Assembly (NCBI GenBank): GCA_021234155.1
Contig: JAJEKV010000095.1
Location: 186,001 to 250,000, forward strand
Length of the DNA stretch: 64,000 nt
Reading direction: 5' to 3'
Source of the DNA: Isoetes taiwanensis
Lineage: Eukaryota; Streptophyta; Lycopodiopsida; Isoetales; Isoetaceae
Part shown: one piece after another, positions 21,401 through 53,020 of the stretch
Layout of the letters: every line of letters starts with the position of its first letter
How positions within the stretch are numbered: the stretch's first letter is position 1
Program-made: the position numbers and the translations under genes
The notes under the pieces: generated by a model
The model's input: the letters and a program-made list of their open reading frames with translations, nothing else
Database searches by the model: none
What the model was told of the DNA's origin: nothing

Positions 21401-22719
21401 TATGGATATGGTAGATAAACAACGGGATATCCGTTTCAACGGATATGGAAGAAATGGCTTGAAACAAATGATGGGCTAGGCTAGGGGAGAGAAGATAGAA
21501 GGAAGAAATGGCTCAAAACAAATGATGGGCTAGGCTAGAGCAGAAGAAGAAGGATCTACCGGATCTAGGCAACGAAACTGCCAGAATTGAATGCAAAATG
21601 CAAATGCAAAAGTATGAAACAGAGGTGCTTGCAAAAAACAGAGCCGAGCGGCGCCGCTCCGCGAAACCTGCAAAATATTCTGCCTTATAAAAGTGACAGA
21701 TTTTGACAGTAATTTCAAGCAAACGTTTATTACGGAGATATTATGACTATTCTCTATTCTAAGAGATCCTGATTTGTTGGGCTCCTACTTTTATTGTGGG
21801 CAGAAAACAGAAGATAAAATGATCTGGCAAGTGCAAAACATGCGCTGCCATTATATATTTAACCAGTAGCATAGTGGAATCCACCACGGTTTTGCTCCAT
21901 ATAATTCTCAATTACCAATGTTATGACCGAAGATTAAATAAATACCCATTTACTTATTTGCACGATGATTATATTTTTAAGGGGTGATCATTTACCACAT
22001 TGAATGTTGAAATGTAATTAAATATGCTTCATCTTTCCTCCCATGTCTACAAGGACTTTCATATTGCACTCATATGAAAAGAGCTTAATTGCAATGTATC
22101 TTTAGATCAAACAAATGCGTTATAGTCTTTCTTTAGCTCAAGCAATATTGTGGAGCATTGCTCCTTTGGCAACTGTAAGTTTAAAATCCCATAAATCTCC
22201 ATAGACTATCAAGCTCAATTCGAATTAACGGGTTCAATATTCTTTCTGAAAGTTTCAAAGTAAATTTGATTATTTCTCCTAGAAAGTAATTCTAATTCAA
22301 GGCATAACTCAATGGGGTTTATTCAAACTTTATGTCATGCCCTAATATGGAACCAAGTTCTAGAATATTGCAATAGTCAACAACTGCCTATAGCTCTGCA
22401 ACCACCTTTAGACAACTAAACTTAGAGCTACCACCTTTAAACAATTGAACTTATGCGATAGTGAGGAATTCCTATGCGCATAAATTCCTTATAGCCTTGC
22501 CTTATGTCTTGGCCATGAGATATTGCCTATTGGTCTAACATGCCAGTTGACATTAAAGAGTGGGAGTTGCATATAGCATTGCTTCGAAAGACCAATATGC
22601 TACCATGCATTAAGATTAAATGTGAACAAATCAAAGAGGTGATCTTTCTAAAGTGAATCCACAAGCTTATCATTTACAAGTTACCAACTTCTCCCAGCAA
22701 CGCTGGGCACCGTTACTAG
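18459..22719 (+). mobile_element. Helitron B, non-autonomous
   Basis: It starts TCTTTTTATATTATAATGTT at 18459, directly after the CTAG of Helitron A, and contains the family block TAATGGACCACGCCCTAGAT. It ends with CCCAGCAACGCTGGGC (22693-22708) and ACCGTTACTAG at 22719, followed by T. No Rep or helicase motifs are seen. The interior holds a segment shared with Helitron A (19671-19713), a long internal duplication (20420-21905) and short ORFs. A few phrases such as NGTLFVLGGDHTEMHV (about 19752) look like real coding sequence of unknown or kelch-like type, but too little remains to name it. Confidence 0.8.
20420..21905 (+). repeat. Internal duplication of Helitron B split by a ~790 bp insertion
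   Basis: The stretch from GCTAAATCCCTGAATCAATC through AGCATAGTGGAATCCACCAC occurs at about 20420-20735 and again from 20740 to 21905. The second copy is interrupted after TTGATTATG (about 20930) by a GC-rich block that ends near 21733. The block's two sides carry related inverted sequences (AATAAACGTT with TTGAAATTAC near 21090, and their complements near 21710-21730). Inside it, a 53-base unit starting GAAGAAATGGCT is tandemly repeated (21449 and 21502). The insertion looks like a small foldback-type element; I found no clear target duplication. Confidence 0.7.
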
Positions 22720-22721
22720 TA

Positions 22722-24643
22722 TCTTATATTATAATGTTATACCGTAAGTGTGTAGTGCATCGAGCCCTAATTTGAATGGCCGAGATCATCTGGATGCATC
22801 CGAAGGCCTAGATTTATTGCACGACTTATCAACACTGTGATTGGTCGTGCTTCGATCTCTTAAGGGGAAAGGGTAAATGAAAAGGGGGAAAAGGAAAAGA
22901 GAAGTGGAAAGAGAGAATATGAAGGGCAAAAAGGCATGGGGAAAAGGGAAAAGGGTAAAAGGAAAAGGGAAAAGGGTGGAGATAAGAGAAGAGAAAAAGA
23001 CATGGAAAACGAAAAAGGGAAAGGGAACCTAGGAAAAGGGCATGAGGGAAGGAGGAAGAGATAAAGTGGAAACGGTAAATGGAAGAATTTGTAAATTGAG
23101 GAAACCGGGTGGGAAAGGGCATAAAAAAAAAAAGGAAAGAGGAAAAGGTTGGAAAAAGGAGAAAATGAAGGAGAAAAAAAACATGGAAAAGGGGAGGAGA
23201 AAAAAAGCATGGGAAAAGGAAGGAGCATGGGAAAACGGGGAAAAAGAGAAGCGTTAAGGAAAGAGGAAAAAGGAAGGGACAAATGGCATAGGAAAAGGGA
23301 AAAAAAAAAGCGAGGGAAAGGGAAGGGAAAAAACGCATCAAGAAAAGGGGAAGAGTGAAAGGTTGAAAAAATGAGGAAAAGGGAAGGGACAAGGGGGAAC
23401 AAGAAAAGGATGGGGAGAGGGGAAAAGAAAAGGGGCATAGAAAAAGGGAAAGTGAGAAGAACGAAAAAGGAAAGGGAAAAGGGGAAAGGGAACCTAGGTA
23501 AAGGTCCACAAGGAAAAAGAAAGAGGGAAACGAGAAAAGGGAAGGGGGAAGGGCATGAGAAAAGGGAAGAGGAAAATGGTGAAGAAAGCGAAAAAAGAAA
23601 AAAGGGAAAAGAAAAGGGGCAAGAGAGAAAGGGTGGGGAAAAGAGAAAAAATGGGTATAGGAAATAAGAGAATAAAACAAATGTGCAAAAGGCATGGAAA
23701 AAGGGAAAAGGAAAAGAAAAGGAAGGGAAAAAGTGCACAGGAAAAGGATCGGCAAAGGAGGAAAACGGAAAGAAAAAATCCATCAAAAAAAGGAAAAGGG
23801 AAAGGAAAGGGAAGGGAGGCGGGGGAGTGATGGAGGGAGGAAAAAAAAAAAAGGATAAGGAAAGGAAAAGAGAAAAAGAAAAAAGAAGGGTTGAAAGAAG
23901 GAAAAATTTAGGGGGAAGAGGGAAAGGGTGGGAAAGCGGAGGAAAAGGAAGCCGCGGAAAAATAGAAAGAAGAAAACGGTGGGAAAAAGGGCATGGAAAA
24001 AGGAAAATAGAAAAGAAAAAAGAATGGAAAAGGGGGGAAAGAGAGAGAGGCACGGGAAAAATGAAATGAGGAAAATGGAAAAGGGGAAGAGAAAAACGAA
24101 ACATGGAAAAGGGAAAGAGAAAAAGGGTGAGGAGATGGAAAAAAGGAAGGTAAAAAGGGCATGGAAAACGGGAGGGAGAAAAGAAAAATGGAAAGGAAAG
24201 GGCACACAAAAAAGGAGGAAAATAGTGGAAAAAGGAGGAAAAGAAAAGGGAAAATAGGCATGGAAAAGGGCGAAAGAGTAAAAGGTTGAGAAAAAGGGAA
24301 GACATGGAAAAATGGTGGGGAAAAGAGAAGGCATAAAAAAGGGGAAGGGAAAAGGCCAAAGAAAAAAGAGAAGAGGGAAAAGGTGTAGAAAGGAGCAAAG
24401 GGAAGGGAAAAATATTATCGGGAACAAGGAAGGGGGAAGGAAAGGGATGGGAAAACAAAAAAACATGTGAGAAAGACGAGAAAAAAAAAAAGAAAAGAAA
24501 GAAAAAATAGAGAAAATAAGAAAAAATGAAATGGGGATAGAGCAAAAGGGAAAGGGAAAGGGATAGGGCTTTTCTCACTGCATCCCAAAGCATTTACAGG
24601 CTCTCAATTTATGCCCAGCAACGCTGGGCACCATATTTACTAG
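22722..24643 (+). mobile_element. Helitron C, filled by a purine tract
   Basis: It begins TCTTATATTATAATGTTATA at 22722, preceded by A. It ends with TGCCCAGCAACGCTGGGCA (hairpin 24613-24629), then CCATATTTACTAG at 24643, followed by T. The 5' ~130 bases contain the family-type block GAGCCCTAATTTGAATGG. The rest is almost entirely an A/G-rich tract. No transposition protein is encoded, so it would depend on an autonomous relative. Confidence 0.85.
22860..24565 (+). repeat. 1.7 kb purine (A/G) tract
   Basis: Nearly every base on the plus strand is A or G, in irregular runs such as GGAAAAGGGAAAAGG. The recurrent interruptions are mostly GCATGG. There is no fixed period. The complementary strand appears as long Phe/Ser/Pro-rich ORFs, which are a composition effect. 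Such tracts can form triplex or R-loop structures. Confidence 0.95.
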
Positions 24644-26366
24644 TAGTTGTTTAAGTGCATTGAAATATGTAGTTCTGGAAATGGGGTTATTGTAATGTTG
24701 CATTAGCCTCATTGTTGTCTCATAGAAAGCTAGGTTGCTTAGCCTGTTGTTGAATTTAGTAGATCGATGCTAATACAACTCTCCTGTTTTTTTGGTCCTA
24801 CCATGAACTGTGGTTGTATTCTGTGGCAGCATTGATCATCTCACTGTAACCCCTAGACCTGAGCCTTTGCCTCTATTTTAATTTGTTTCTTACCCCTTCA
24901 TGTGGATCTGTTCCAACCCTATCAGTCTCGTTTAGGTGGAAATACCCTAGAGTTGGAAATTTTTTATTTAATAGGAATATTTGATAAACATTTAATAGTG
25001 ATAGAGATGAATGAGCATCTTTTTGACTAAAGGCCAGAAGTCTCTTCTTAAAAAATTCGCTAACATTTCCTTGTAATGCATACTATCTAAGATTGTTATA
25101 TCATTGCTTGAATGGATTTATTTCGGTTCAACTCCTAAACTACTTTATTAAACCATGGTTCTAAGTGAAAATATAATTGTGAGTAGAACAATCGAAAAAA
25201 CAATGACCATGTGGAATTTTTTTTTTTATCTACGGTTATTTGTTGCTGCTTTTTTTTTTTTTGTTAGTATAGTTTTTCAATGATTTTCTTTAGAACTATG
25301 TGTCCTTATCTGAGAAAGACTACATTTGAAAACAACTATTTAAAAAAAACAACAAGTGGATGTTATGTTAAGCCACATATTATTTTTTAGTGAAAACAAC
25401 ACTTGGAAAACTATTATTTTAAAAAACTACACATGGATGTTATATTAAGACACATTATTTTTTAGTAAAAACAACATTGGAAAACTACTATCCATGTGTA
25501 TATTTTGTAAACCACATGTTATTTTTTAGTAAAAACAACACTTAAAACAACTTCTATTCTAAAAAATGACACGTGGATATTCTGTTAAGCCACATGTTGT
25601 TTTATAGTAAAAACAACACTTCAAAACAATACATCGAATTTTTTTTTTTTTCTGTTCATTTCCTATGCATAGACTTTTTGGATAAAAACTACATGTTGTT
25701 TCTAGCATTTTCGGAACAAAACAATGGGTACTGTTTAAGTGTTGTTTTTTCGCAAAAAAGATACTAAAAAACTATACGTTGAGCAAATTTTGGGGTTATA
25801 GTGCTCCCGATGCCTTTGGCAAAGGAAGCAGATTAAGGGATCAAGCTTATAGTACCACAAGGGATCAAAGGAAGAAAGTCAAGACCTTTGAAGCGACATA
25901 ATTCAGGTTAGATAAGGAGAATGATAATTAAATTCTGTGATATATGCACAGTTCTGCAAAATTGGTTAGTCTAAGCTATTGAAGGCGACAATTTAGACGG
26001 TGGATATATTTATGGATGCTATGTGATTCACATGTCTTAAAGTTTTTGAATAGAGTTAATGCATTCAAAAATTTTATTGGCAGCTGTCTCTTAGCGGGGC
26101 CAAACAAAAATGCTAATACAAACAGGAAGAAGACTTATGTGATAATTGCGATAATATTTTAGAGTAGAGTTATTGGCTTATAGATCCATTCCTTTGCTTG
26201 CTTGCATAGTGTTGTAGCAGATGGTTGCTTTATTCTAGATGTGTAGGATTGTTTGTTGTTGTTAAAAACATGTAATTATAGGTGCCTACAAGTCTTTGCA
26301 TGTATTCTGCAGAAACGTAAACCGCTGTTTTGGAGAAATTCCTCGAATATTCCATATTTCTTTACT
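24644..26366. repeat. AT-rich spacer with a ~75 bp tandem repeat
   Basis: No gene is recognised. Between about 25328 and 25632 a unit of ~75 bases is present in about four diverged copies; each contains AAAACAACACTT, a GTGGATRTT phrase, AAGCCACAT and TTATTTTTTAGT. The rest is AT-rich with poly(T) runs. Confidence 0.7.
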
Positions 26367-26440
26367 TAACAAGATTGCGTATTAAACGGGAGCAAATCAT
26401 TGAAACGAGAGCAAAAGGAATATTCCTCAAAGATTCCCTT
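26367..26440 (+). repeat. Left terminal inverted repeat of the candidate large transposon
   Basis: TAACAAGATTGC, ATTAAACGGGAG, GAAACGAGAG and CAAAGATTCCC occur here in that order. The reverse complement of 37727-37786 has the same blocks with small indels. The degree of divergence suggests an old insertion. Confidence 0.6.
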
Positions 26441-26656
26441 TTTTTTTACAAAAAGGGGGTAAAATGAGGTTAAAAAAAAAAAAGATGCATGAAATTCTAT
26501 TTTGACCCCCCCCCCCAAATGACTAATTTTTTTTTGCAACGAAAGAATTGACTTTTTTAAAGTGTCACTTTTCTTAGCAAATAGAATGTTCTTCAAGTAT
26601 GTTTAAAGAGAGAAACTCTAATTTCGGAGGATAAAATATTTAACAAAAAATTGAAG

Positions 26657-29600
26657 TAAGTCCAGAATCGAGGCTTGATACCTTTTCATCTCCGAAGGGT
26701 ATGTCCGGTATGGTGACTGCGTTGGCGGGGGTTAAGCCGTTTTGCTAAGGTCTTTGGTAGGCGTGTCGGCGGCAGCAGAGCGGCGAGGAGTTGCATAGTC
26801 TTTATCGAGTTGAGAAGATTCGCGCTGACCTTCGATGGCATTAGGGGAGAATGCAAAGGTTGCAGTATTGTTGCTTTGGAGCAGATTAAAGTGCATGAGG
26901 CTGCGTGTGAAGGCAGCCCCACCTGGTTGAAGGAGGGGGATACAAGTTAAATTGTTCTTCTTGAGCGGCTAGGGCGGGCGATATCAAAGCATCTATGGCG
27001 CCCCTTGCTTTGCTCGATGGCCGGACTTTGGAGGATCCCGGCCGAGTTGCAGAGGTATGTGCATGCTCATTTCTCGGGTTTTTTTCGCAAACAAGACTCT
27101 TCCCTATGAGCGAGGGGAGATCACGGGAGCTTGTTTTGGGGGCTGTTAAGCCATCTATTTTGCCTCACCAATGTGAGAGCTTGGAGCAGGAGCTCTCCAG
27201 AGAGGATTTAGCGGAGGCATGTATGTGCATGGCCAAGGATAAATGTCCTGGGCTGGATGGCATCCCTGTGGGAGTTCTTTGGACTTATTGGGAGTGGGCT
27301 GGTGAGTCCGCGGTACGTGTGTATCTTGAGTTCTTTGCAGTCTTCTCACATGGATAGGATCTTGAATACCGCATGCATTTCCTTGATTCCTAAGGTTAGC
27401 GACCTTCTACTATTAATGATTGGAGGCCTATATCCTTGTTGTCCTCTGTGTACAAGATTATTGCGAAAGCCCTCGCCGAGAAGTTGAAGCCGGTGTTGAC
27501 TTCTTCCATTAGTAAGGTGCAGTCTGGGTTTGTTCCTGGGAGGAACATTTTGACTAATGTTGCCGCAGCTTATGAGGGCCTTTATTGGGCCAGGAGAACA
27601 GTCAAAGCATTGCCTATCTTAAAGCTTGACTTTGCCAAAGCTTATGATAGTGTCCGTTGGGGAGTTCTTGTCCGCCATGATGTTAGCGTTGGGGCTGGGT
27701 CCACGCTTTTCGTGAGACGATCATGAAGCTGCATAGGTCAAAGACGGGCTACGGTGGTGTGCCAGGGTGAACCCTCCGCCTTTTTCTCCTTAGGCAGAGG
27801 GGTGCGTCAGGGGTGCCCTTTGGCACCATTTTGTTTCGATTGTGGCGGAGGCAACCGTCTCGCCTTGTTTTTGGGCTGCAGTGGAGGAGGGGGTGGTGGA
27901 TGGGCTTTGGATGCGGGATGGTAGTCGCCAGATTATTAACCGGATTCGCCGATGACACTTTTCTCTTCTTGGTGGCGTAAGAGAGGAATTTTGCTAAATG
28001 TGAAGGGTTTCTTTGGATACTTTCTCCTTGGCCTCGGGCATTCTTCGAATTGGGGTAAATGTCTCGCATTATGGGCCCGATTGACTCGCCTCCCCCTTGT
28101 TTGGCTCTATTCCCTTGGAAGGTGCTTCCGGGTAATGTGTGTACTAAGTGTTGGGTATTCCCTTTGGAGGGATGTTTCCATGGGGAGGGTGTGGGATGAG
28201 ATTTTGCGGGGGGTTGCGTAAAACACCTCAATTGGTGGAAGGGTAGCAAGTTGTCCATGGCGGGTAGGATCACTATTGTCAAGTCAATGACTTTGTAGCA
28301 CTCATGTGTATACAAAGATCTGCGATGTTAGCTCCCTCGAGGGTAAGATACGGGCTTTGGATAAGATTGTTCAAATTTTGTGGGGGGGGGATGATGAAGG
28401 GGCGGTTGTTAAAGTGGCTTGGTAGAAGTGTCTCCGCCCCGGGAGGATGGGGGGCTTGGCCATTCTGGATTTGGCACCGCATAGTAAGGTGTTGGTCTCT
28501 AAGTTTATTTGGAGCATTCCCCCGGGATGGAGCATCTTCTCACGGTGCGGCACTATTGTGGCAATCTCTTCGCCATTGTGTGGCATTTGGAAAGTCGATG
28601 CGTGCATGTAGAGTTGCCCCGGCACTATTGTATGGTCTCCGCCTTTCCCACATGCGCCCCTTTTCTCCACGGGGGTGTTAGGGCTTGGGATCACGTATGC
28701 GTGTGCTCTTCCGACTAGATTATGCCTCAGTTTATCACCACTCTTCTCCTTTCTTGTGGGTTCCTCTACCTCCTAGCGACTTGCCCCTTGGCTGCCATCG
28801 CGGCATGCTCTGACGCAGGGGCGCTGGAGGCGAAGGAAACTCAGGCTCACCTTGGAGGATTGGTATTGGGATGGTCAGCTAGCCGTGGGAGTTCTTTTCG
28901 AGCTCGCCGCGAAGGACAGTGGACAAGGGCTATTCGGGAACAAGTGGAAGGGAGTATTCCGCTACATATACCTATAGTCCTTCGTGGTGATGTGGTGGTG
29001 CAGTTTGGAAGGTTCATCCGGATGTTGTATCTTCTTGTTTTGTGCGGTCTTGTTACCCGGTGTTGGCTATTCATGACACTCTGCCCCTCTCGGGCAAGTG
29101 GTCTCCGCAGCCTTCCAGGGTTCTCCGATGGCGCTTCGGTTTGGGCGTGGACATGGAGCTCACTTCCCCACCGGAAGGTTCGGGTGCTTATGTGGCGGTG
29201 GTGCACCGCATTTGTCTGTGGTGAATGTCCTTGTGAGTCGGGTTTAGGGCCGGTGTGAGCCCTCTTTGCCCCTTGTTGTGGTCTTCATCGTGAGAGGCGT
29301 GGAGCATTGTCTGGTTTTATGCCCTCATTTGCGGGTTGCTGGGATTGGGTCGGGGGCCTGTTTCGTGAGATTGAATAGCCAACAATTCTTTGCTTCATGT
29401 GTATCCCGGTGTTTGGCCACTTTCGTATGGCGGCAAGCCTTGCATCCGTGGCGTGGCTTGGTTGGTGTGGTTGATTTGGAAGCGGCGGCGGTTGTGGATC
29501 TTTCGGGGGATTCAAGACTGCGGCCTCTCCGATTCCTCGACTCGGTACAAGCTATTTCAAAGCTTTTTTGGTGTTCCGGGATTAGTAGGCGGAAGTTTTC

Positions 29601-29783
29601 CATTTGGCGGGACTTCTTGGGTGTGGTAGATGGTGATGGTCGGTTTGTACAAAGATGGAGTTGCGCTTGTTGTGGAGTGTCGAGGTATCACTGTCTCTTT
29701 GGGGCGTTCTCCTTCCTCCTCACTTGCTTTGTAACATTACCATTCTTTTAATATATATTGAATACGAGTTCTTCAAAAAAAAA
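26657..29783 (+). mobile_element. LINE (L1-type) with broken ORF2, 5'-truncated
   Basis: Plus-strand pieces of a plant L1 reverse transcriptase are seen in several frames. They are GLDGIPVGVLWTYW (~27250), NTACISLIPKV (~27367), SVYKIIAKALAEKLKPVL (~27440), KVQSGFVPGRNILTNV (~27514), LKLDFAKAYDSVRW (palm motif A, ~27620) and GFADDTFLF (the catalytic YxDD/FADD box, ~27944). Downstream, zf-RVT-like sequence (KVRVLMWRWCTAF, ~29179) follows. The 3' end is TTTTAATATATATTGAATAC, a short spacer and nine A (29775-29783), the usual plant LINE tail. TTGAAG occurs at 26651 and right after the A tail, a weak candidate target duplication. Endonuclease is missing or unrecognisable at the left. The LINE inserted into the candidate large transposon, so it is younger than it. 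Confidence 0.88.
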
Positions 29784-29889
29784 TTTGAAGATAGAATCTT
29801 CATATTCACATGCAAAATTCACGGTTTTTTCTAAGACTCGATTATGTGCAAAAGTGTGAGGAGTGATGAGAGAGGGATCCGGGACGTCT

Positions 29890-32215
29890 TCATATTCATT
29901 TATGCCATCGTCATCACCTTCACTTCTTTCATGTCATCCGAGGAAGTGCTCGAGTTATCTTCCTCATCACTATCAACAGACGGTGAAGCATTGTCACCAC
30001 CTTCTTCATCATCTTCTTCGTAATTACAAGCTTTTTTAAGCAAATTGATAGTCTTCTGGCGTAGACGATTGTCAGATTTCAATTTAAAATCATAGCACAA
30101 AATAGTCACGTCATTAAGGTTCAGCTCGTCCCTACAACCCACCTTCTTGGACTTTCTCCCTTTTCCTTGACTTCTCATTTCTAACTCATATCTACCTTCA
30201 AAAGCATTTTTACGGCGTGTTGCAAGCCAATGAATCTTGAGTTTAGTGACTAAGCCTTCCTCCTTGATTTATGTCAAGCACTTTTGCTATCGAGCAACGG
30301 TCGACCTTTGTCATCCTCCTCGTCCCGGAAGAGCAATTAGCATACCTTTGGTAATTTACGTGATATTACCTTGAGGCTCATTCTGCGTCTTGGTCCGAGG
30401 TACATGACTCGGTCCTCCTCGTCTTCTCTACTACTCGCAGGTGCAAATGTAGCATTTGCTTGGACTGCTTGGTCTTTGGGGTTGATGGAAGGTGTTAGGC
30501 CATTGAAATGGTTCTTGCAACTGTCTTAGAGCTATATGTTGTACAACAATTTTCTGTTCGAGAAAGAAATTACTCCACCACATCCGATCTTCTTCTAAGA
30601 AGTACTTAAAGCCTGAGGAAATTCCATTTTCAATGGCTTTTAAGGATGACTCGGGGTACTGTACCTTGGACTCCTTAGGATTTTTGAGAGGAAGTTGTTC
30701 AAAGACGCTCTATGAAGGAAGTGTCGGAATATATTTAAGGAAGCGTAATCCCTCCGGTGGACTCCAGTCCTTAGTTGTGGTATACTTCTTCCCTGAAGAA
30801 GCTTTGGCCATCCTTCAAGTAGAACTTGATATGATCTTTGAAAGGTGAGATCATTCAACTTGTTCGCTGACTTGTTCTCTGTTTGAGCGTTGAGAGAAAA
30901 CAAACTCTCTAAAATCAGCGGTCTCTTTAAGAAGATCGACCTTTGGAGTAGGAGTGTAAGAATCTTCAATAATTGAACTAAAGAAGGAAGACGTAAAAGC
31001 CTTCTTCCTTCTAAGTATACGTAAAATCTCTTTGAACATTTGGTCAATCGATCATGAGTGTGGCCTACAAGTAAGAAACCGAAGCTTCACTTTTCTAAAG
31101 ATCCCTAGCTCCACTAACATGGCATGATGACGCTAAAGAGTGTTTGATTCTTGTTCTCCCTTGTAGTATTGTCAAGTTTGCAGATAAAGCACCGGGTGGT
31201 AATTGCTCTTGCTTTCATACGGGACCTTGTTAAGAATTGTAATTGTGAGGTTCGGGTCACCATGCAAGTTTGGATACGTCAAAAATACTTTGCACTTTAG
31301 ACTTCCTTTGAAGACCATAGCTCCTACAAGGTGGACCTTAACAAAACATTCCTCTCGCACATCCTTAGGAATGTTCAAGAAATGTGGTAGAGTTGTTTTT
31401 TTGGTCCATTCCATCAATCACAAATGAGACATGTATTGCGATTGGGCGTTCAAGAGCTTTTTTTCTATGCTTGGCAAGCTTTCTTCTCTCTGCTGCTTGT
31501 TGTTCACGATGTCTGGCAAGGTTCTGTTGCACAATATCTGTAGAAGAAATCAGGTCAAAACATTTTCTCAGAAACAAGTGAGAGATTGGAGAACATGAGC
31601 TTACTTCTTTCGACCTCTGTCTTTGCAGTTTCTCGTTGACTCTTTAATTCTGCACACCTCGAGCAAAACGGACATTCTATGTTTTCTAGGAATTTTCACA
31701 AGACCCGAATTCACTTTTCCCGGTCCCGGTGAAGTGTGAGTAAGAGATGTCTTTGAAGCGGAGTGCAAATCTCTTTGTACTCATTAAAAACATCTTTTTG
31801 GTGATGTTATCAGTTAAATGATACATGTTCTTTGTTAGGTAGCTTCTCACATGTTTCTCTAAAATATTTCTCCATCCATGACACAACAAAGAAGGGCATG
31901 CATGGTTACAACTCTTCTTGGTCCACAATGATCATCGATTGCTGGATTTTTGTCGATCTTTTGTGTATTCTAGACATTACGGTGGACCCTAAGCGGTGGA
32001 CAACCATAAAGCATTTTCGGCAAACTTCTTGGCGGTTAATGTAGTGCAAGAAGGTGTTGCGGTCTGGTCTTACATGATAAGCTAAGTAGGCATGCAGTGC
32101 GCCAATGTCATGGAACTGTAGTTGTCTCTAGCGCTTTCGTAATTTAGCCATATTAAATCTGTTGATGCAACCCAATGAGCAGCATTTAGTTCTCAAAAGT
32201 CTCCTCATTTTGTGT
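29890..32215 (-). pseudogene. DUF7869-like putative transposase pseudogene
   Basis: Minus-strand pieces, in order, match a widespread family of transposon-encoded proteins of unknown chemistry. They are a zinc-type N-terminal block CCSLGCINRFNMAKLRKR (~32180), HDIGALHAYLAYHV and NRQEVCRKCFMVVHRLGST (~32040), WMEKYFRETCEKLPNKEHV (~31870), and CPFCSRCAELKSQRE (~31670). The core motifs follow: VSFVIDGMDQK (~31405), HLVGAMVFKGSLKCKVFLTY (~31330), NPLTITILNKVPYES-like text, KLDNTTRENKNQ (~31170), LVGHTHD then IDQMFKEI (~31050), and SYTPTPKVDLLKETADFREF (~30950). The tail contains FLEEDRMWWSNFFLEQK (~30580) and an acidic stretch (EEDDEEGGD). The acidic residues in IDGMDQ, LDN and HTHD-IDQ are candidates for a metal-dependent nuclease centre. 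Stops and frameshifts throughout make it a pseudogene. The family assignment is from memory of motifs. Confidence 0.7.
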
Positions 32216-32990
32216 TCATACATAAGATTTCTTCTTCTTTAGGAGGAGCAGCCCTCAAACCAAAATCCACCTTGAATTTCTTTGAAGATTGGCTTGAGAA
32301 CATGTAATCTCTTTGTTCCTCGTTGGTGTCTTCATCTTTGATGAAACTTCTACTGGGGGGGTGACTTCCTCTGTCTCCGAGTGGTGTGCTTGTAGAGGAA
32401 AAGCAGACCACGTGAAGTTGTTCCGGAATAGGCGGGGTGCAGGTGTTAAAGGATGGTGATGGCCCATAAGAGGTTGTGGCATCATTTGTTCTTGTACCAT
32501 CTTGAAAAGGAGTTCTTGCAAACATCTCCTTTAGGCCCGGACTGGAATTACGCAAATCCATGTGTCACAACCGTTGTTGTGTGAAGAGGAGTGCATCTTT
32601 GGGCGTCGTCCTCATTTGTAGTGAAGTCTGGTGAGAGAAATTGTAGTGAATCTCCACGGTCTTACGTGTTTTCTACGTGTTCCTTGTATGTTTGCAACGA
32701 AGGGGCGAAACTACAAAAGGGGGTAGCTTGTTCTTGAGCACCCTTTGTTGTGGAGCTTCAGAGGTCGGGGATGGAACAAAGGGTGGTGGCAACCCTCTCC
32801 GAACTGGTGGTGATTCTTTGGAAGGAGATGCGGTGTCTTTGTCTACGAGGACTTGGTGACGGTTGGAAGGGTGGTGGAAGTGGTTGTTATGTCTTTGGAC
32901 TCGGTGTGTCTTGAGAAGCAACAACGATGAAGCAGGTAGGAGGAGTCGGAGAATGCCGGTCTTCACTAGAAATAGCGTTGTTCCCAAAGC
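32216..32990 (-). pseudogene. Proline/serine-rich N-terminal region of the putative transposase
   Basis: Minus-strand coding text upstream of the transposase core (32205-32561 and 32673-32987) is rich in Pro, Ser and Thr. It has repeated PPPF(V)-S phrases such as RRGLPPPFVPSP and KLPPFVVSP. It lacks a recognised domain and looks like a disordered N-terminal tail, or a separate exon, broken by frameshifts. The link to the downstream core rests only on position and strand. Confidence 0.35.
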
Positions 32991-33470
32991 GTGTCCTCGG
33001 GGAGCAGGCGAGCTTGAGACAACAAAAGGTGGTGGAAGCTTGTTTCACGGCGGTTCGTCATCTTGACAAGCGCAAAATAGTAAAGAGATTTGAGAAACTT
33101 TACGTAATGCAGAGCTTTTCTTATTCGAATACTGCGCCCGCGTAGTACAAGTAGAAGTTCGGTACTAATCAAGTGAAAGTCAAAATAAAAGCTATTACGG
33201 AATACACAAGAGTAGGATAGTAAAAGCTAAGCGTATTAGGATCACATAGAAAAAGAGCAAGGCGAAAATGATACCTTTAAAAGGAAATTTGGTAGCCTTC
33301 GGTTCGCGTATTCAGTCCGAGCTCAAGTGGCCCGGTGCCGGCCGCCGATTATTATATTCTGTATTCGATTCACATAGAAACCATGGACGGGTCGGTGAGA
33401 AAGTACAACGTACAATCATTTGCATGTCTGTTTCTTATGAAGAATACCTTTGGCCTTCGGGAGTAACCTA

Positions 33471-33667
33471 AAAGTGTATTCCAATACTTTACCGCCCAGT
33501 GGAAGCGAAGTGTGTCCGAATACACTTTAAGCCCTCCACTTTCGAAAGTGTGTTCGAATACACTTTTTTCAAAGTGAAACGAAGTGTCATTCGGACAATA
33601 GTGTGAACCCCAACCGGTGAACTCTCCGGCTCCCGGCTTCGATCGAAGAAAGTGTATTCGAATACTT
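33471..33667. promoter_or_regulatory. Cluster of four GTGTATTC/GAATACAC palindromes between the divergent genes
   Basis: Near-palindromes of the form AAAGTGTATTC-GAATACACTTT lie at about 33471-33490, 33508-33528, 33545-33567 and 33649-33667. They are in the region between the putative transposase (leftward) and the methyltransferase gene (rightward). Their density suggests protein-binding or structural sites. Operator-like function is inference. Confidence 0.6.
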
Positions 33668-33889
33668 CCGTGTTTTAGGTTTTAGGGGTTACTTTTCCTT
33701 TTTTTTTAGTTAATTTAGGCGTTCTTGCTGCATTTTTAGCTTGTTTAGACCACTTTTTTGTCAAGATTGCAGTGCTTTTTGGCATTTTTGTCCTCTTTTT
33801 GCCCTCTTTTTTTCCCTTTTTGTAAGCCATTTTATATTGGAATAGTTCTTTGCCTTTTTTTTTCTAACAAGGTCGTGTTTACACAATTT

Positions 33890-36800
33890 GCCTGAACATG
33901 GCGGCAGCAGAAAGAGCGAGAAGAAGCCCCAAAAAATCTCACGAAACCGCACCCCACGAGAAGGGTTGAGGAGTCGGATCGCTTTGCTATCTCTGAAAAC
34001 TTCCAAACTCAATGGTTTTACAAGGGGTACTTACGGAAAGTCAAACACCCGACTTTTCTACATGTCTGCCGGAACCACGGAACCAAAGGTCACGATGGCG
34101 GGGAATTTGTGCGCATGGGCACCATCCGTCCGTGAGTGAGGTAGTAGGTGGCCCCGGTAAGGGAGGGAGATTGTCTTTTCGGACATCTCAAGGCTTTATT
34201 CATGTTGATGAATCCTACCTTAGAGTTGTGAAGGTAAATCCACATCCTCTTTATAAAGTATGTTTCTCACTACGAACAAGAGGTGGCTCTCGCCATCATT
34301 AATTACGTTCGGGAAATAACGGCGAGGACTTCCCCCCTGGCCGAGTCGGAGAACAAGGGAAGAGGAAGATCGAGGGAATTTATCGGGGAGTCCATCACGG
34401 TCTGCGAGCCCATCCGAAGTGAGTTCATCGAGGTTCGGGAAGAGCAGCCACCTCCACCACCACCCAAAAAGCGAGGCAAACCGTAGGCTGCTAAAAGAGC
34501 CTAAGAAAAAAAGCGGCTATCATTGAAGCAGAAGATGCTCTCGAGGAGAATGCACACAAGAAGAAGAAGGGGAAAGGCAAAGCACACGGCGTTGCCATCA
34601 AAAAAAAAAGTTGATAAAGCAATGAGAGAAAATGGAAGAGATAAACCTGCACAAATTTGTGCAAGGTGTCATTTATTTGCCGGTCACATCTATGAAGCTT
34701 CCTCCAAAAATGAAGCTGGAGAAGCGACCGCTGCGGGTTCGAAAGATATATCTGAGACCATCTAAGGAACCTCAAGGACGAGAATCCGGAACAATCCCAA
34801 TGCACATGTAGCTCAATTGTTGTTCTTGTTGATAGAAAGCGATGCACAACTCTGCAGAGTACGATAGAAAAAATGCGGACACATATATCGCATTATGTTT
34901 TGGGTGGGAACCCGGCTTTAAGGCAAGGAGGCAATTATACAAGGAAAAAAAGAATCCTAGGTACTTATGCGTTCTCAAATCTTCGTCTCGTGGTTTGACC
35001 AAACGAGGAAGCCAAAATCGTTGCCAACACTCACAATGCCGACAACGAGTACAAGTTAAAATGAGCTTTGTCGACAAAATCAGATTCATGCACAGAGAAT
35101 ATGTTATCTTCAAGGAAAAGTATGGAGAGGATCTCAAAAAGCCCACGATACTCCCTTGAACTTAAAGAAGCTTGTGCCATTGAGTGTTGCCTTAAATCTG
35201 ACGAGGCGAACAAGCGGGCATCACTCATTGGTCATGACAATTGGTTTCATCTAGCGTTCGGGGATGGCGGGTAAGGTTACAAAGCGTATTCGAGAATAAG
35301 ATTTAGTGTGCAACTAGCTTCTAAGTTTTTAATTTGTTTGCGGTAGATCGGGAGCTTGAGCGAAATATTTAATATGTTTGGAGCGGTGAGCTAAAAAGTA
35401 AGGAAAGGTGTGGGAGAAGAAAGAAAGCGGCGTCCCAAAGAAAGAAATGACCATCAGCATGCGGAGGGAGATGCGGGGGTTCACCGACCGCGAATTACTA
35501 GAACGACTTACGCAAAAGGTGGTGGACAAAGGAGTTCACACTTTCGAAGAAATGTCGAAGGAGTTGCACAAGTAAGCATACAATCATTGCTGCCTTTTCA
35601 CTTGTAGAATTACTGTCGGATAATGACAATCTAGTGCTCACGGAAATGCTTTCTCACCCTCGAGGGAGCGAAAGTGTATTCCGAATACGTTCTCTCTTCT
35701 TGTAGTGTAAAAGTGTATTCGAATACACTTTTACTCCTTTGAGTCGCTTAAAGCGTGATACGGAATACACACTCTAACTTGTTGCGTTGTAGAAGTGTAT
35801 TCCGAATACACTTTTTGCTTCTTCTTTTTGCGAGTTAAAGTGTATTCTGGAATACACTTCTGCAACAAGAAAAATATTGATTACAGCGCTTGTATTCTAG
35901 AATAACTTTAGGTGGCAGGAAGATAGTTTACTTCGCGTTTTCTCTTTTCAACTGCTAAAAAGGTTGTGTTTTTCTTTCTAGCCAAAAAAATGTTATCACC
36001 TGCCAGACATGTCTGATGGAGCAACTCAGCGTGGAGGCGTGGGAGAGGTGCAAGGAGCTTTATCCCATAGCTACATCCGGCTGGCGTATGCTTGATGCGC
36101 ACCAAATTTTGAAGGATGGGTACGCTGACTAAACACGTCATACTTTACTTGTCTCTGTCTCAATCTCCCCTTTGTTTGCAGAACAAGAAGAAAAATAAGG
36201 ACCTGCCAGAAGGTTTCATGCACCTCGTCAGACTGGCACGAGAAGAAAGAACACTGGCAGAGAGGAGAACTCTAGATGTGGAGCCTTCTGATTATGAAAA
36301 GTTTAATTTATTTGACCAAAATAATTTGTTTTCCATCATTTCGGAATTTGCACTAATTTGGTTGGGACGATAAAAGCCACAAGATTTCCTGCTTTGGTGA
36401 TTGCGGACCTTCCTTATGGCTTTAAACTAAAGGGACACCGTTCTGACGACCAGCCTTTTAAATTTTTAGAGTTTAACGCTTTCGTCGACGGCATCAAACA
36501 AGTCACAACGGCCAAGCACTGGCGTCTTGTCGTGTTTCACTCGAGCATGCAATCTGGCCTTGTGGAGTCCACGTTAAAAAACTCGCCGGATCCCCGGTGC
36601 AAATTTGGTTATGAGAATTTGGTTTGGTGAGTACTTTATTCGGAATACGTTGGGCTTGTTTCTTCTTTTTGTTTTAGTTTTCTATTCGAATATAATTGCC
36701 TTTGACTTGTTCTCTTTGTTTGTTTCTTGTTACGTTTTTCGTTAGTGACACCACTCTAATTTCTCTGGTACAAAACAAATATAAACTACCACCATGGTGG

Positions 36801-37268
36801 GCGAGATTCTTTGAGTAAGGTTGAATACCTCCATGTTGCTTCTTGGAGTTTCGATGGAAAAGCGCACCATGGAGCATTTTAACCACAATGACATGCCGAA
36901 TTTTTCTAATGTGTTGGAATTTCCATTTGTGCTTCAAAAGCTCTGAGGACCCTAGTGCACAAGGTAGAATTGTTAATCACTACCCGAAGCCTCAAAGCTA
37001 ATCAACCATCTCCTAGACATGTTTTCCGTCCGGAGATTGGGTGCTTGATGCCTTCTCGGCTCACGGTACAACAATAGCTTGTGCACTTAGGAAGGGCCGG
37101 AATTGTGTAGCAGTGGACATTGATAAAGAAGCTGTGCAATTCATCAAGATGAGACTGGCAGCCTTGCCTACCCTACCAGATGAGCACCAAGAGTTAGGGG
37201 CTAAATCCTCATCCGATTTTGCCAAGCTGACCTCTTCTGAGATCAGCCTCCATTCACTAGCTCTTTAA
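33890..37268 (+). pseudogene. Beta-class N4/N6 DNA methyltransferase gene, multi-exon, decayed
   Basis: The 3' half encodes a DNA methyltransferase of the bacterial-type N-4/N-6 family (PF01555-like). PALVIADLPYGF carries catalytic motif IV as DLPYG (GAC at 36406). NHYPKP then KLINHLLDMF (~36975-37025) resembles the KP block before motif I. GDWVLDAFSAHGTTIACAL and GRNCVAVDIDKEAVQFIKM (37035-37165) are AdoMet motif I (DxFxGxGTT, here with Ala for the first Gly) and its following acidic strand. Motif IV precedes motif I, as in the beta class. Upstream exons include WFYKGYLRKVKHPTF with HVCRNHGTKGHDGGEF (~34008-34110), a basic Lys-rich segment (~34500-34640), and QTCLMEQLSVEAWERCKELY (~36000), which joins DLPEGFMHLVRLAREER across a GT-AG intron (36119-36181). 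Frameshifts near 36330 and 36980 and several stops inactivate it. Substrate base cannot be told: DPPY favours adenine, SPPY cytosine, and this has DLPY. Confidence 0.75.
35671..35908. promoter_or_regulatory. Second cluster of five GTGTATTC/GAATACAC palindromes
   Basis: Sites are at about 35671-35691, 35709-35732 (AAGTGTATTCGAATACACTT, perfect over 20 bases), 35793-35816, 35837-35859 and 35889-35908. Half-sites are conserved while the centre varies from 0 to 2 bases (TTCGAA, TTCCGAA, TTCTGGAA). They lie in a non-coding stretch of the methyltransferase gene, probably an intron or a second promoter. Confidence 0.65.
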
Positions 37269-37726
37269 AGGATGAAGCTACTTTTGCAGCTGAAAGAAGT
37301 GGCACTAGCTACCATTCCTGAAGACACTACAAAAGTAGACAAGGGTAAGGCACAAAAAAAGGATCAGACTGTAGAATCTGGCACAGCAGAATCAAGCAAA
37401 AAGCATGATGAAGACTTGATTTGGACCTTTAGTGCGTCTTTTTCAAAAACATTATCTCGACCACCATGTGATGTTACAAATTGTATCATTGAAACACTCT
37501 TCATTATATAATAATTATTTTATTCACTACATTCTGGTGTTTTCAAGATAGTACTTTTTGAGAATACAAAAGCATGTCTAAATTCTTCCCTTTTCAAGTG
37601 TTGGTTTTGGCAAATTCCAAGTTATTTTACACTAGGGGGCCAAAAAAGAGGTAAAAAAAAATTAAGCCTATTGGAATTCCCAATTAGAAGGAAAAAAGTG
37701 TCATTTTCTAGATCAGGCTGTTTTTT

Positions 37727-37786
37727 TCAAGGGAATCTTTGAAACGGGAGTGCTGCAACACTCCCGTTTAATTTGCAATCGTGTTA
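37727..37786 (-). repeat. Right terminal inverted repeat with internal hairpin
   Basis: This is the inverted partner of 26367-26440. It contains a perfect palindromic stem ACGGGAGTG-CTGCAA-CACTCCCGT (37744-37767), a subterminal hairpin not present in the left arm. Confidence 0.6.
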
Positions 37787-38812
37787 CTTTAGGTATTTTT
37801 AGGTTTATGCGATTCCGGTGGCGCCGCTTATAGCATCGCCCGGCAGATTCTGGTGGCGCTCACAGCCGACCGGCACTGGCAGAGTAATCTTGTGCTTGTG
37901 TTCAGAATCATCACTTGCAGATCCGGCAGATAAGGAAGATCCGTCAGAAACAAGGACGATCCGTCAGAAACAAAGAAGATCCGGCAGAGCAAGGAAACAA
38001 GGAAGATCCGGCAGAGCAAAACAAGAAAGTTCATGTAGCAAAACCCTGTTCTTCATGTAGTGAGACCCTGTGCTTCAGATCCTGTTTGACCCAGTTTTTT
38101 AATCATATTTTTGATCCGGCGAAGCATCAAGAGCGGTAGAAACAACTTGCAGATCCGGCAGAGCTACAATGCATCAGACAATGAAATAGGAACGGAGGAG
38201 CTTCTTGATCCCTTATTCTTGATCCCCTGTTCTTGAGCCTCTGTTCTTCAGATTTGGCGGAGCATCAAGGGCGGTAGAAACAGGGTCGGAGCAAGAAGCT
38301 GAGATCCGACAGTAGAAACAGGTGTAGGACTTATCTCCTTGCTCAAAGATTCTTGCTTAAAGGGGCCAGGACTTATCTTCTTGCTCAAAGTTTGGATCAA
38401 ATCGAAAGAGAAACACAGATTAGATGGAACATACTAGACATCAAGTATTCCTCGCGTAATCAAGTATTCCTCGAGCTTCTGTGATTTTACAAAAAAACCC
38501 AAAGATCTGTGACTGGTCCCGCTAATGATTTTCCCTCAAATCCGTTGATTCAGAAGCTAACAAGAAAATTCGCAATGTCCAACACGCCGGAAACAAGCAC
38601 AAACAAGCACGGAATTTCTCCAAACCAGCGGTTCCGCATTGGTAACCCGGGCCAGATCTCGGGGGTTTCTACGGTAAAGCGGCGGCGGCGGCGGCGGCGG
38701 CTAACGCCCGGCGGCGGCGCCGCTTCGATTTATCGCCGAAACCCTCGATCCGCCGGTTACCTAGCACATGTAGACTTTGCTCTGATCTTAGATTTCAGGT
38801 GGTTGCATATTA
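37787..38812. other. Spacer with GATCCGGCAGA repeats and a CGG tract
   Basis: The phrase GATCCGGCAGA or GATCCGTCAGA occurs five times between 37918 and 38020, spaced 20-36 bases apart, and again singly downstream. A (CGG)7 trinucleotide tract lies at 38680-38700, followed by GGCGGCGGCGCCGC. No gene is recognised. A at 38812 is the left flank of Helitron E. Confidence 0.7.
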
Positions 38813-39249: not shown

Positions 39250-39958
39250 GTTTGGGTTAATTGGGCGTTCCATTGTTTGCAGAAATTCTGTTCGAAAGGC
39301 CTTGAAATCATGTTTTACACCAGTTGGATTTATTAAAGTATATGCTTGGCACTCCAACGGCGGAAATGATCTCCAGGGTATGATCCTTTCTTTAATCATA
39401 ACATGGAATGCTATGATTGGGTATTGCTGTCACTTACAGAGAAATAGGATAGTCTGTGCATGTTTTGAGCCATTGGTTTTTTTCAATCTATTTTGATCCG
39501 TTAGATACACTACTACAAAAATAGGTAGAAATGGCACAAAAGTGACATTTATCCTCCGCCGTTTTACCGGGCATAAACGTCACTTTTGTGCCATTTGGGG
39601 AGCACAAACGTCATAAACGGCACAAAAGTGACGTTTATGCCCGGTAAAAAGGCGGAGGATAAATGTCACTTTTGTGCCATTTCTACCTATTTTTGTAGTA
39701 GTGATAGGCGGTTGTTTTATCCGTTTTTGATTGGGGTCTGTGCTTCCGGATGCACATCCCATGCATTTCGGTCCTCAAACAACTCTGTTGAATCTGCTGC
39801 TTAAATTATTTGGAGCCGTACTTTAAAGGGCAGATGTGGGTTAATTGGGTGTTCCATCGTTTGCAGAAATTCTGTCCGGCGGAAACGATCTCCAGGGTAT
39901 GATCCTTTCTTCAATCATAACATGGAATGCTATGATTGGGTATTGCTGTCGCTTATAG
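39250..39958 (+). repeat. ~120 bp direct duplication inside Helitron E
   Basis: GGGTTAATTGGGYGTTCCAT, then GTTTGCAGAAATTCTGT, then ATCTCCAGGGTATGATCC through GATTGGGTATTGCTGTC occur at 39250-39437 and again at 39838-39958. The second copy is shorter by an internal deletion. The CACTA MITE lies between the copies. Confidence 0.9.
39508..39703. mobile_element. CACTA-type MITE, 196 bp foldback
   Basis: It begins CACTACTACAAAAATAGG and ends CCTATTTTTGTAGTAGTG, with nearly perfect inverted arms of about 85 bases. The 3-base target duplication ATA is present on both sides (39505-39507 and 39704-39706), as expected for CACTA (En/Spm). The arms carry a repeated GGCACAAAAGTGAC motif. Transcribed, it would form a long hairpin. 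Confidence 0.95.
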
Positions 39959-51145: not shown

Positions 51146-52767
51146 TAGGTACTATAAAAGGTATAACTAGTTGGTACTATAAAAGGTACATTCAAGGAAA
51201 CAGGTGAAAGATAAAAAGAGCTGCCTTTCTAATATAGGCAGCTTGGGTAACACCAATGCATAGCCACCAGCAACTCGTACAAAGATCCAAATAGCAACAG
51301 GTGGATTTCTTAGATGTACTAAAGGATTAAGTGGTAACAAATAATCTGTTCATTCTTCTATATGTTCCACGTTCAACACAATCAATACATAGCAATAGCA
51401 ATGCATAGCGCAGCATCAACGCTGAGCACTTTGCACTCTTTCTGATAAATTTTGCTAACCTGTATTTCGCACAAAAGAATGAAGAATATGAGTCAAGAAA
51501 GCTTGTTCATCCATACCTTTGAGGCTATCATCTCTTTCATTCTTGTACCAATTCCTACCGTCCCGGTACATGCGGGAGCATATAATAAAGAGTGGAACAT
51601 TCTTCTGGTTGTAAAGGCTCTTCTTCAATTCTGCCTGGAATTCATGAGCTAATTCTGCCATTATTTTACCCTTCCACTTCATATCATAAGCTTTGTTCTT
51701 TAAGCTCTGATCTGCTTTGGTTCGAACCATAGCACATTCTTTGTTCCAATTTGCGGCTTCTACAGCGAGTTGAACATCTACCTCTAAGAATATATCACTG
51801 GTTAAAATGAGAATAAAATCAAAGGCGTAGAGCTTTTTATCCTTAAAATAAGTTGCTGCTGGATGTTTTAAAGTGTCAGCACCAAGAAGCTTCCAAAAAA
51901 CAACATTGGGAAATCTAGAATTACTATAACGCTTTACTTCATCAGTGGTTTGCATTGTTGACCTACCATTAGATCATTACTTCACCATTTAATCTTAACC
52001 TAAGTCCCATATTAAAACTCAACTTCATATAGCAACCCCTGAGTGCATATAAGAAGAAGACGACTTACACTCACTAAAGCAATATCTTGCAATTCAGAAG
52101 CAAAAATTAGTAAAGTTTGCAGCTTTTTGGGAAGCTTGCATGCATATAAGTTTTGACATGGTAATTATTGGGTTATAAGTTCTTTAAGGTTTTGCCTTAT
52201 GATAATGTGAGTAAAGAAGAACCTATTGTGTTGCAACATATTTTTTTGGCAATGGTTCGACAAAGCTTTTGTTTCCTACGATATTATAGTAGCATAACAC
52301 ATATATTATAGGAGGCTTTATTTGCAATGTTTTACATTTAATAAGCAAGAGTCATGAACACAGACAGGTTCATATTTTGTTTGCATACACCAAGTATTTT
52401 TAAAGATACTCTAGGTAGATGTGCAAAGTTCTTTTAAAGGTAGCTATACATAAGGGTGCAACACAATGAACAAGCTATCTATGTTAACAGTAAATAACGC
52501 AAGAATACCTTCAAAGGATTACATGGTGGTGGTGTTCACAAGGCATCTATAGCCACAATACATCCACATCCATGTGCAAGCAACAAGAAAGAGTAAGTAT
52601 ATGAAATTTAGTACAATACAACATCAACCCCCCATAGAAATGACCACTTGCAATTTACAGGTTCCTAAAACGATTCAATGGCCCAGAAGTTGCTCTATAC
52701 AAATACACAAGTTTCTAACATTTATAGGTTTCCAAATTATGCCAGCAACGCTGGGTACCGTTACTAG
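51146..52767 (+). mobile_element. Segment ending in a Helitron 3' end, containing an IRG-like fragment
   Basis: GCCAGCAACGCTGGGT (52741-52756) and ACCGTTACTAG to 52767, followed by T, match the family 3' end with one lost stem base. No 5' end is seen. An IRG-type GTPase fragment lies inside on the opposite strand, possibly captured. Confidence 0.5.
51455..51955 (-). pseudogene. IRG-type (immunity-related GTPase-like) G-domain fragment, 166 aa
   Basis: The open frame from 51955 encodes most of an IRG-like G domain downstream of the P-loop. RFPNVVFWKLLGADTLKHPA (residues 14-33) corresponds to the G3 region, where IRG proteins have W-DLPG-GT; here Asp and Pro are replaced (WKLLGAD). LYAFDFILILTSDIFLEVDV (42-61) is the hydrophobic strand and following helix typical of IRGs. 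MVRTKADQSL (76-85) is the G4 motif (TKxD). VPLFIICSRMY (120-130) corresponds to G5. No P-loop (GxxxxGKS) is found in the frame or in the next 3 kb upstream on this strand. IRG proteins act at membranes in animal cell-autonomous defence and occur patchily in other eukaryotes. The damaged G3 and missing P-loop argue for a pseudogene or captured fragment. Confidence 0.7.
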
Positions 52768-53020
52768 TTTGGAATAATGGAATGATGTTTAAAAAAGAGA
52801 CCAACCATGGTACAATCTGGCAAACCATGCATGCTTTTACAAGAATGGATGAGTATTTATAATTATAAATTGCCTTCGATTTTAAATATATTATTGTATT
52901 GCTTACCACTACAAATGGCATAGTGGATAAATCACAAAAACATACAACTTGATATATGCCAATTCGATTAACAAGCACTAAACAATACATCTATTTCTCT
53001 CAAAATGGCAATGGTTTATA
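52768..53020. other. Short spacer between Helitron segments
   Basis: AT-rich, no recognised feature. A at 53020 is the left flank of Helitron D. Confidence 0.5.

Follow-up and report, generated by a model that had tools for sequence, protein, structure and literature searches.

Clade-specific palindrome arrays as a candidate target of the ParB-like methyltransferase carried by DUF7869 transposons of Isoetes taiwanensis

We analysed a window of 64,000 nucleotides from the genome of Isoetes taiwanensis (assembly GCA_021234155.1, contig JAJEKV010000095.1, positions 186,001 to 250,000 of the forward strand); position numbers below are those of the window. It holds a decayed copy of an autonomous DNA transposon of the DD(D/E) type with AACA...TGTT ends, a member of a large superfamily in this genome, and cut-and-paste movement is presumed from this type. 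Two genes, both broken in the window copy, diverge from a shared upstream region (Table 1). The leftward gene would encode a DUF7869 transposase. The predicted product of the rightward gene joins a ParB-like region to a beta-class DNA methyltransferase of the N6-adenine or N4-cytosine type, related to CcrM. Moreover, the pair is accompanied by two arrays of short palindromes, and we propose these arrays as the candidate target of the methyltransferase.

Table 1. Features of the transposon copy in the window
Feature	Positions	Strand	Evidence
Whole element, window copy (11,418 bp including nested insert)	26368..37785	.	repeat search and flanking duplications
Target-site duplication ACTT, left	26364..26367	.	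identical 4 bp at 37786-37789
Left terminal inverted repeat AACAAGATTGCGTATTAAACGGGAG	26368..26392	+	repeat search, genome-wide end counts
Nested insertion resembling a long interspersed nuclear element (LINE), foreign to the transposon	26673..29780 (approximate)	+	alignment gaps in L001-L009
Transposase gene, broken; start codon inferred near 33061	30116..33061	-	tblastn with the 987-amino-acid L011 frame, covering 30116-32813
DUF7869 region of transposase	31000..31600	-	tblastn; PF25273 in L001
Palindrome array I, intergenic; decayed GTATTC/GAATAC units	33469..33665	.	repeat search, motif counts
ParB-like region of rightward gene, frameshifted here	34635..35247	+	tblastn
Palindrome array II, within the inferred intron that separates the ParB-like exon from the methyltransferase exons	35666..35871	.	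repeat search, motif counts
Methyltransferase exon, catalytic motif DLPYGF at 36406	36263..36627	+	tblastn
Methyltransferase exon, S-adenosylmethionine (AdoMet) motif I DAFSAHGTT at 37047	36769..37205	+	tblastn; PF01555 on the corresponding exon of L003
Right terminal inverted repeat, AACACGATTGCAAATTAAACGGGAG on minus strand	37761..37785	-	repeat search, genome-wide end counts
Target-site duplication ACTT, right	37786..37789	.	matches left flank

The limits of the element are fixed by the flanking 4-bp duplications. A repeat search of the window detected inverted arms of 26 nt (26367-26392 and 37761-37786) that are 88% complementary. A 25-base pattern to which both ends conform has 647 exact matches (333 + 314) in the whole genome (1,658,258,908 bases in 1110 contigs), against none for the reversed control. 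From the first 100 of these 647 end places we picked 17 facing pairs on single contigs, and 12 of the 17 span 8.0-8.8 kb. Nine full copies (L001-L009; F10-F18 and L011-L041 denote other loci of the same genome) were selected by left-end and right-end or methyltransferase matches on one contig and strand. Identical 4-bp flanks, varied in sequence, border all ten copies with both ends read (the window and L001-L009), and pairwise identity among these ten is 85-94%. The element usually measures about 8.4 kb, and the greater length of the window copy is due to a LINE-like insert of about 3.1 kb at approximately 26.67-29.78 kb, in which reverse-transcriptase-like frames were recognized by eye and which is missing from the nine other aligned copies. 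Four further elements (F12, F13, F15 and F17), whose ends were located without using the duplication, also have 4-bp duplications, and AACA...TGTT ends are found in F10 and F15 despite a transposase identity of about 50%. At 37740-37785, adjoining the right terminal repeat, a short hairpin AAACGGGAGTG...CACTCCCGTTT can be seen by eye. A second inverted pair lies outside the element (26320-26342 and 38611-38633; 23 nt, 96%, 12.3 kb apart), suggesting that the element may be nested in another repeat.

In copy L001, the leftward gene matches DUF7869 (PF25273) with an E-value of 8e-43, and the related element F11 (locus L011) has an uninterrupted transposase frame of 987 codons. The motifs VVIDGMD, LQLDN and GHTHDQIDQ are invariant in three clade representatives and could provide the three acidic residues of a catalytic triad; transposases of Sola1 elements have a DDD catalytic triad. 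An IMG/VR search with the transposase confirmed no relative, and a literature search by the name DUF7869 returned no paper. C-terminal of DUF7869, the L011 transposase has a conserved stretch (KGMLIALP...WIAKVL...LKIHWL) that has no Pfam match and resembles, by eye, a chromatin-reader fold. Another copy of the transposase gene contains Copia-like frames (L016, 3043-6652; CCHC, integrase and reverse transcriptase, all by eye).

As for the rightward gene, whose introns were inferred from frames and splice-like borders by eye, the N6_N4_Mtase family (PF01555) is matched by all three methyltransferase rows of our alignment A2, with an E-value of 1.7e-14 in L003 (54.7 bits versus a curated cut-off of 26.7). 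Catalytic motif IV precedes AdoMet motif I, which is the beta order, in the window and likewise in F10 and F13. Motif I reads DAFSAHGTT in the window and DAFSGSGTT in L003, L005, F10, F13 and F18. A profile of the three rows matched the solved structures of CcrM (6pbd, E 4.5e-11), MboIIA and RsrI and, because of these matches, our guess is that N6-methyladenine (6mA) is a somewhat likelier product than N4-methylcytosine (4mC). In the ParB-like region, the homologue from the F10 family, one of four aligned members, matches the ParB-like PHROG 1033 (E 4.5e-6). Pfam reports DUF6551 in all four members, with a best E-value of 0.0021 and the first member falling under the curated cut-off, and two further names at chance level in one member each. 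IMG/VR searches with the ParB-like region and the methyltransferase confirmed no relative. Among phage records, the F10 ParB-like region found none at E 0.1, and the methyltransferase found 138, all below 60% identity, the 15 listed being each below 27%.

The gene pair recurs beyond the window family. Transposase similarity lies on the strand opposite to the ParB-like region and both methyltransferase exons in the ten full copies (10/10). A first look at the genome gave 9907 candidates for DUF7869 and 1444 for N6_N4_Mtase, of which the best 150 of each were scored, all above the cut-off. Between these best-150 lists there are 24 pairs within 15 kb, and 22 of them are divergent as in the window; a control with shifted positions gave a mean of 0.38 pairs and a maximum of 2 in 200. 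When six other DUF7869 loci were fetched with extensions (F10-F15), opposite-strand exons were present in F10, F12, F13 and F15. The exons of F10 are 50% (ParB), 44% (catalytic) and 62% (motif I) identical, and the transposases of F10 and F15 share 50% and 48% identity with that of F11. Comparison of F18 with F13 gave proportions of nonsynonymous (pN) and synonymous (pS) differences of 0.05 and 0.77 for the motif-I exon, and of 0.11 and 0.87 for the ParB region; raw pN/pS ranges from 0.06 to 0.56 over the ParB and methyltransferase exons in comparisons among F10, F12, F13, F15 and F18. Since changes between families are mostly silent and the ratio of nonsynonymous to synonymous rates (dN/dS) of less decayed pairs goes down to 0.05, the methyltransferase looks constrained in active lineages, with window-like copies as dying remains. 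Window and L001 differ with a dN/dS of 0.59-0.96 over four regions, a ratio that frameshifted codons inflate in degraded copies. In a separate comparison, the transposases of L013+L021 and L018 are close (dS 0.24), while silent sites of their ParB-methyltransferase genes have reached saturation (pS about 0.8); transposase and ParB-methyltransferase genes may have been reshuffled between such elements.

These data bear on the sequence-only reading of the window, which had proposed inverted ends 11.4 kb apart around a leftward putative transposase and a rightward beta-class methyltransferase. The ends and both genes proved real, and in the ten full copies and nearly all pairs between the best-150 lists the two genes form a divergent pair rather than occurring independently, although lists capped in this way may miss free-standing copies of either gene. 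That reading had also named as support further copies with the same ends, both genes and a duplication, which all ten copies have, ideally with intact frames. The ParB-like region and the two palindrome arrays are additions to it.

The units of the arrays are 14-bp palindromes with the best form AAGTGTATTCCGGAATACACTT. In array I of L001 they are intact, three of them being spaced 35-38 bp. Counted on both strands, GTGTATTC is present 14-25 times per element in the ten copies and once in the remaining 52.6 kb of the window. CCAG and CTGG, among other decayed centres, match the outcome of CpG deamination, which we infer to be their cause. Conservation is higher in cores than in spacers in both arrays (0.911 versus 0.676; 0.955 versus 0.876). 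The arrays of autonomous elements are distant from both ends, by about 4 kb on the left and 2 kb on the right. At both array places, F10 carries GTATGAATTCATAC and F15 carries GTATAAATTTATAC, which F14 has in the upstream array only. We also fetched 2.8 kb from 16 further loci of the DUF7869 list, chosen with their upstream DNA unseen. These contain 110 sites of the form GTATN6ATAC versus 0.5 expected (maximum 3 in 200 first-order Markov resamplings), and 11 of the 16 have at least three. Two other test loci, L037 and L039, carry CTATGCGCGCATAG in the same region as the other arrays.

Altogether, four motif classes match four transposase groups in a FastTree phylogeny of the transposase rows. 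Class B, with the centre GAATTC, comprises F10 and L025 (support 0.999). Class C, with the centre AAATTT, comprises F14, F15 and L027-L036 (support 0.998), a group in which L038 also falls, without an array. Class D, with the centre GCGCGC, comprises L037 and L039 (support 1.000). Across a branch supported at 0.999 lies class A, with the centre TCCGGA (window, L001-L009, F11-F13 and F16-F18). L026 and L040 were too short for placement on the tree. Elements of class B also contain a few class C-like sites. All four classes fit xTAT-N6-ATAx, and the six central bases vary by transposase clade. Genome-wide counts against reversed controls were 3720 versus 0 for class A (GTATTCCGGAATAC), 12556 versus 17 for class C (GTATAAATTTATAC) and 1551 versus 0 for class D (CTATGCGCGCATAG). 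For class A the spacings have a peak at 42 bp, and for class C there are peaks at 21, 30-32, 41-42 and 62-63 bp; these values approximate whole numbers of helical turns.

We also found elements that keep the arrays but not the genes. L041 (contig C4) is a 3.78-kb element that shares with L001 only about 260 bp of the left end, 280 bp of the right end and, just within either end, a palindrome array. A 1.3-kb piece from its middle has 14 matches longer than 1 kb, itself included, with 40 of 70 candidates scored. L041 and three more copies were fetched as a sample of these non-autonomous elements. All four have the same ends, each with a different 4-bp duplication (ATAC, TTCT, TACC and ACAT), and 7-9 palindromes each versus at most 0.005 expected, in arrays that lie some 370-800 bp inside the left end and 460-600 bp inside the right end. 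None of these copies showed similarity to the transposase, ParB or methyltransferase (best E 0.74). Because the gene-less copies retain both ends and palindromes, the arrays are retained by elements that are obliged to borrow their proteins.

Our best reading, to which we give a probability of about 0.45, is that the ParB-methyltransferase binds and methylates the arrays of its own element, with an anti-silencing outcome like that of VANC, a protein of the VANDAL21 transposon of Arabidopsis. The leftward gene would provide the DUF7869 transposase and the rightward gene a ParB-like protein joined to a beta-class amino-methyltransferase. This protein would bind the 14-bp palindromes of its element, both those in the intron of its gene and those covering the shared promoter region, and methylate DNA there as 6mA or 4mC. 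The methylation, in turn, would keep the promoter region open against host silencing and mark the element as self. Each family would serve itself, since each clade has its own palindrome centre, and non-autonomous relatives with ends and arrays would be served in trans. A marking protein loaded on arrays is suggested by the ParB-methyltransferase fusion, the family-specific palindromes and the retention of arrays by gene-less elements. We infer three steps: reading of the arrays by the ParB-methyltransferase rather than by the transposase, their methylation by the same protein, and an anti-silencing outcome. The self-modification of element DNA envisaged by the sequence-only reading may accordingly have the arrays as its target. 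We propose more tentatively a "write-and-read self" system, in which a ParB-like methyltransferase on clade-specific, helically phased arrays would mark its own promoter with 6mA or 4mC and cancel host silencing, and the palindrome centre would be a family-diverging address exploited by non-autonomous relatives.

Several observations weigh against this self-marking scheme. Regarding the protein, the ParB assignment is weak, as it depends on the one member in four that matches PHROG 1033 and on agreement with a published algal protein; a comparison of the ParB-like region with the PDB gave three matches (best E 0.28), none of them to ParB. The canonical tetrapeptide of beta-class enzymes is DPPY or SPPY, and the catalytic motif is DLPY in the window family and DIPY in F10 and F15. 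According to the frame lists, both genes are open in none of the 8.4-kb-family copies read. Regarding the pair, 2 of the 24 neighbouring pairs are not divergent. F15 has a ParB region of about 34% identity and the catalytic exon only, tblastn having found no motif-I exon. Three of the nine other DUF7869 loci (F11, F14 and F16) gave no ParB or methyltransferase exon in tblastn of the fetched DNA; by eye, F11 has the beginning of the rightward gene followed by other sequence, and the 15 kb fetched for F14 yielded no exon of that gene. Constraint is little in the motif-I exon of F12 versus F10 (pN 0.50, pS 0.88), and dN/dS within the window family extends from 0.05 (F18 versus L001, ParB) to 0.96 (window versus L001, catalytic exon). 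Regarding the arrays, none was found in the fetched 2.8 kb of 3 of the 16 test loci (L026, L038 and L040), and the class D motif was identified after the fact, from two loci without the expected motif. The phasing test gave no support in class B (n = 6, p about 0.11) or class D (n = 10, p about 0.25), and it counts spacings inherited by tandem duplication as independent, which makes its p-values too small. Finally, the pair on contig C985, 14.9 kb apart, was omitted from the full copies fetched. The ends of F10, whose search demanded equal 4-bp flanks, were excluded from the duplication evidence. No right end was found for F11, F14 and F18, and that of F16 was sought only within the fetched DNA.

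The arrays could instead be bound by the transposase or a host factor, to aid synapsis or transcription, with the methyltransferase acting elsewhere or everywhere, for instance on the ends to time transposition. Dam modification of the ends times transposition of IS10 and Tn5. The clade-specific centres track the transposase tree, so that transposase sites fit this tree equally well, which is a further point against methyltransferase binding; in non-autonomous elements, moreover, the arrays lie inside both ends, as subterminal transposase sites might. In autonomous elements, however, the arrays are internal, in the divergent promoter region and the inferred intron, far from the ends, and we regard such binding sites as a serious but rather unlikely explanation. 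Less likely again is an autorepressor or copy-number governor that would methylate the shared promoter region and shut off both genes, limiting the element itself. The position of array I between the two divergent genes would suit this role, and a bacterial-type 4mC enzyme is tied to transposon silencing in bdelloid rotifers, according to the parts of the report that we draw on (PMC8885841). Yet array II is no promoter of the pair, nor are the arrays of gene-less elements, and, as a general argument, purely self-limiting genes are hard to keep in competing parasites.

We consider it very improbable that the methyltransferase is a chance passenger without a role in the element, a view already disfavoured by the recurrence of the pair across families with about 50% transposase identity, by the divergent orientation of nearly all neighbouring pairs and by a pN well below pS in most between-family comparisons. 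Passenger genes are nevertheless described as common in giant transposons in the sections of PMC12477816 consulted here, and many copies are decaying, as the highest ratio within the window family illustrates. An enzyme domesticated by the host, with the copies as debris of a host gene amplified by a transposon, seems just as improbable. Liverwort sperm use a bacterial-type 4mC enzyme (cited in the parts of PMC8885841 used here), but there are more than 1000 first-look candidates in this genome, those near a transposase are mostly in one arrangement, and a single-copy host locus was not searched for.

Elsewhere in the window, strongly purine-rich tracts occupy 22001-25000 and 52001-55000, with GC and AT skews of 0.61 and 0.56 at 23-25 kb and of 0.64 and 0.62 at 53-55 kb. 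An inverted repeat at 39508-39703 (89-nt arms, 98% complementary, 18 nt apart) is flanked by two 84-nt direct repeats (39358 and 39877) and is perhaps a small foldback element.

The same gene-pair architecture is found in Sola1-1_Ec32, a large DNA transposon of the brown alga Ectocarpus, whose authors likewise propose that proteins of this sort bind to the transposon encoding them and modify it; similar proteins are traced there to a 2011 study and to Petroll et al. 2025 (PMC12477816, in part). Hence, the pair is not undescribed, as the sequence-only reading had supposed. Since it is known from algae, this is not a new kind of element, and the architecture of transposon and ParB-methyltransferase is new for a land plant only. 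Our search of open-licence papers, supplements excluded, turned up neither a land-plant record of the element nor any description of such arrays. The algal element is 21.5 kb long versus 8.4 kb here, comes from a brown alga rather than a vascular plant and is described, in the passages devoted to it, without mention of palindrome arrays (PMC12477816). Virus-borne Mariner elements likewise carry a methyltransferase gene inside a DNA transposon, with another transposase superfamily and other methyltransferase classes (Methyltransf_26 and C5), and 4-bp duplications are also given for Sola2 in the portion of that paper used here (PMC3627910). The bdelloid N4CMT and the 4mC methyltransferase of Marchantia are likewise bacterial-type amino-methyltransferases active in eukaryotes, and N4CMT resembles the element enzyme in having PF01555 with the catalytic part first. 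Unlike the latter, however, both are host genes, and N4CMT has a chromodomain instead of a ParB-like region (PMC8885841, in part).

The element probably belongs to Sola1, judging by the length of its duplication and by the published parallel: 4-bp duplications flank the family copies, the non-autonomous copies and four more elements. Bao et al. reportedly defined Sola1 in 2009 by a target-site duplication of this length. Membership in the Mutator-like elements (MULEs), hAT, CACTA or piggyBac was considered and dropped, given duplications of 4 bp without a fixed sequence. Through our study, the algal architecture is now known at high copy number from a vascular plant, together with its likely cis target, which was previously missing for a test. 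With palindrome centres that are specific to each clade and arrays that persist in gene-less elements, the idea of self-methylation to escape silencing is now directly testable. If this idea is true, plants would have invented sequence-specific anti-silencing a second time, by a route chemically distinct from that of VANC, and transposons of a vascular plant would be writing a non-canonical DNA mark.

VANC brings about a loss of methylation and is not known as a methyltransferase. The VANDAL transposase is that of a MULE, and MULE duplications are 9 bp long. No MULE was among the Pfam matches of our transposase frames, and the second gene gave no VANC-like match. The two systems have in common a second transposon-coded protein and short, family-specific, arrayed motifs, which in VANDAL21 are located upstream of the transposase gene and in introns. 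The VANC motif, YAGTATTAY, is non-palindromic and arrayed in one orientation, whereas the motifs described here are palindromes (PMC5735166, in part). In the sections of both papers that treat this system, the VANC motif and protein diverge together, and the outcome is anti-silencing (PMC5735166, PMC10398659).

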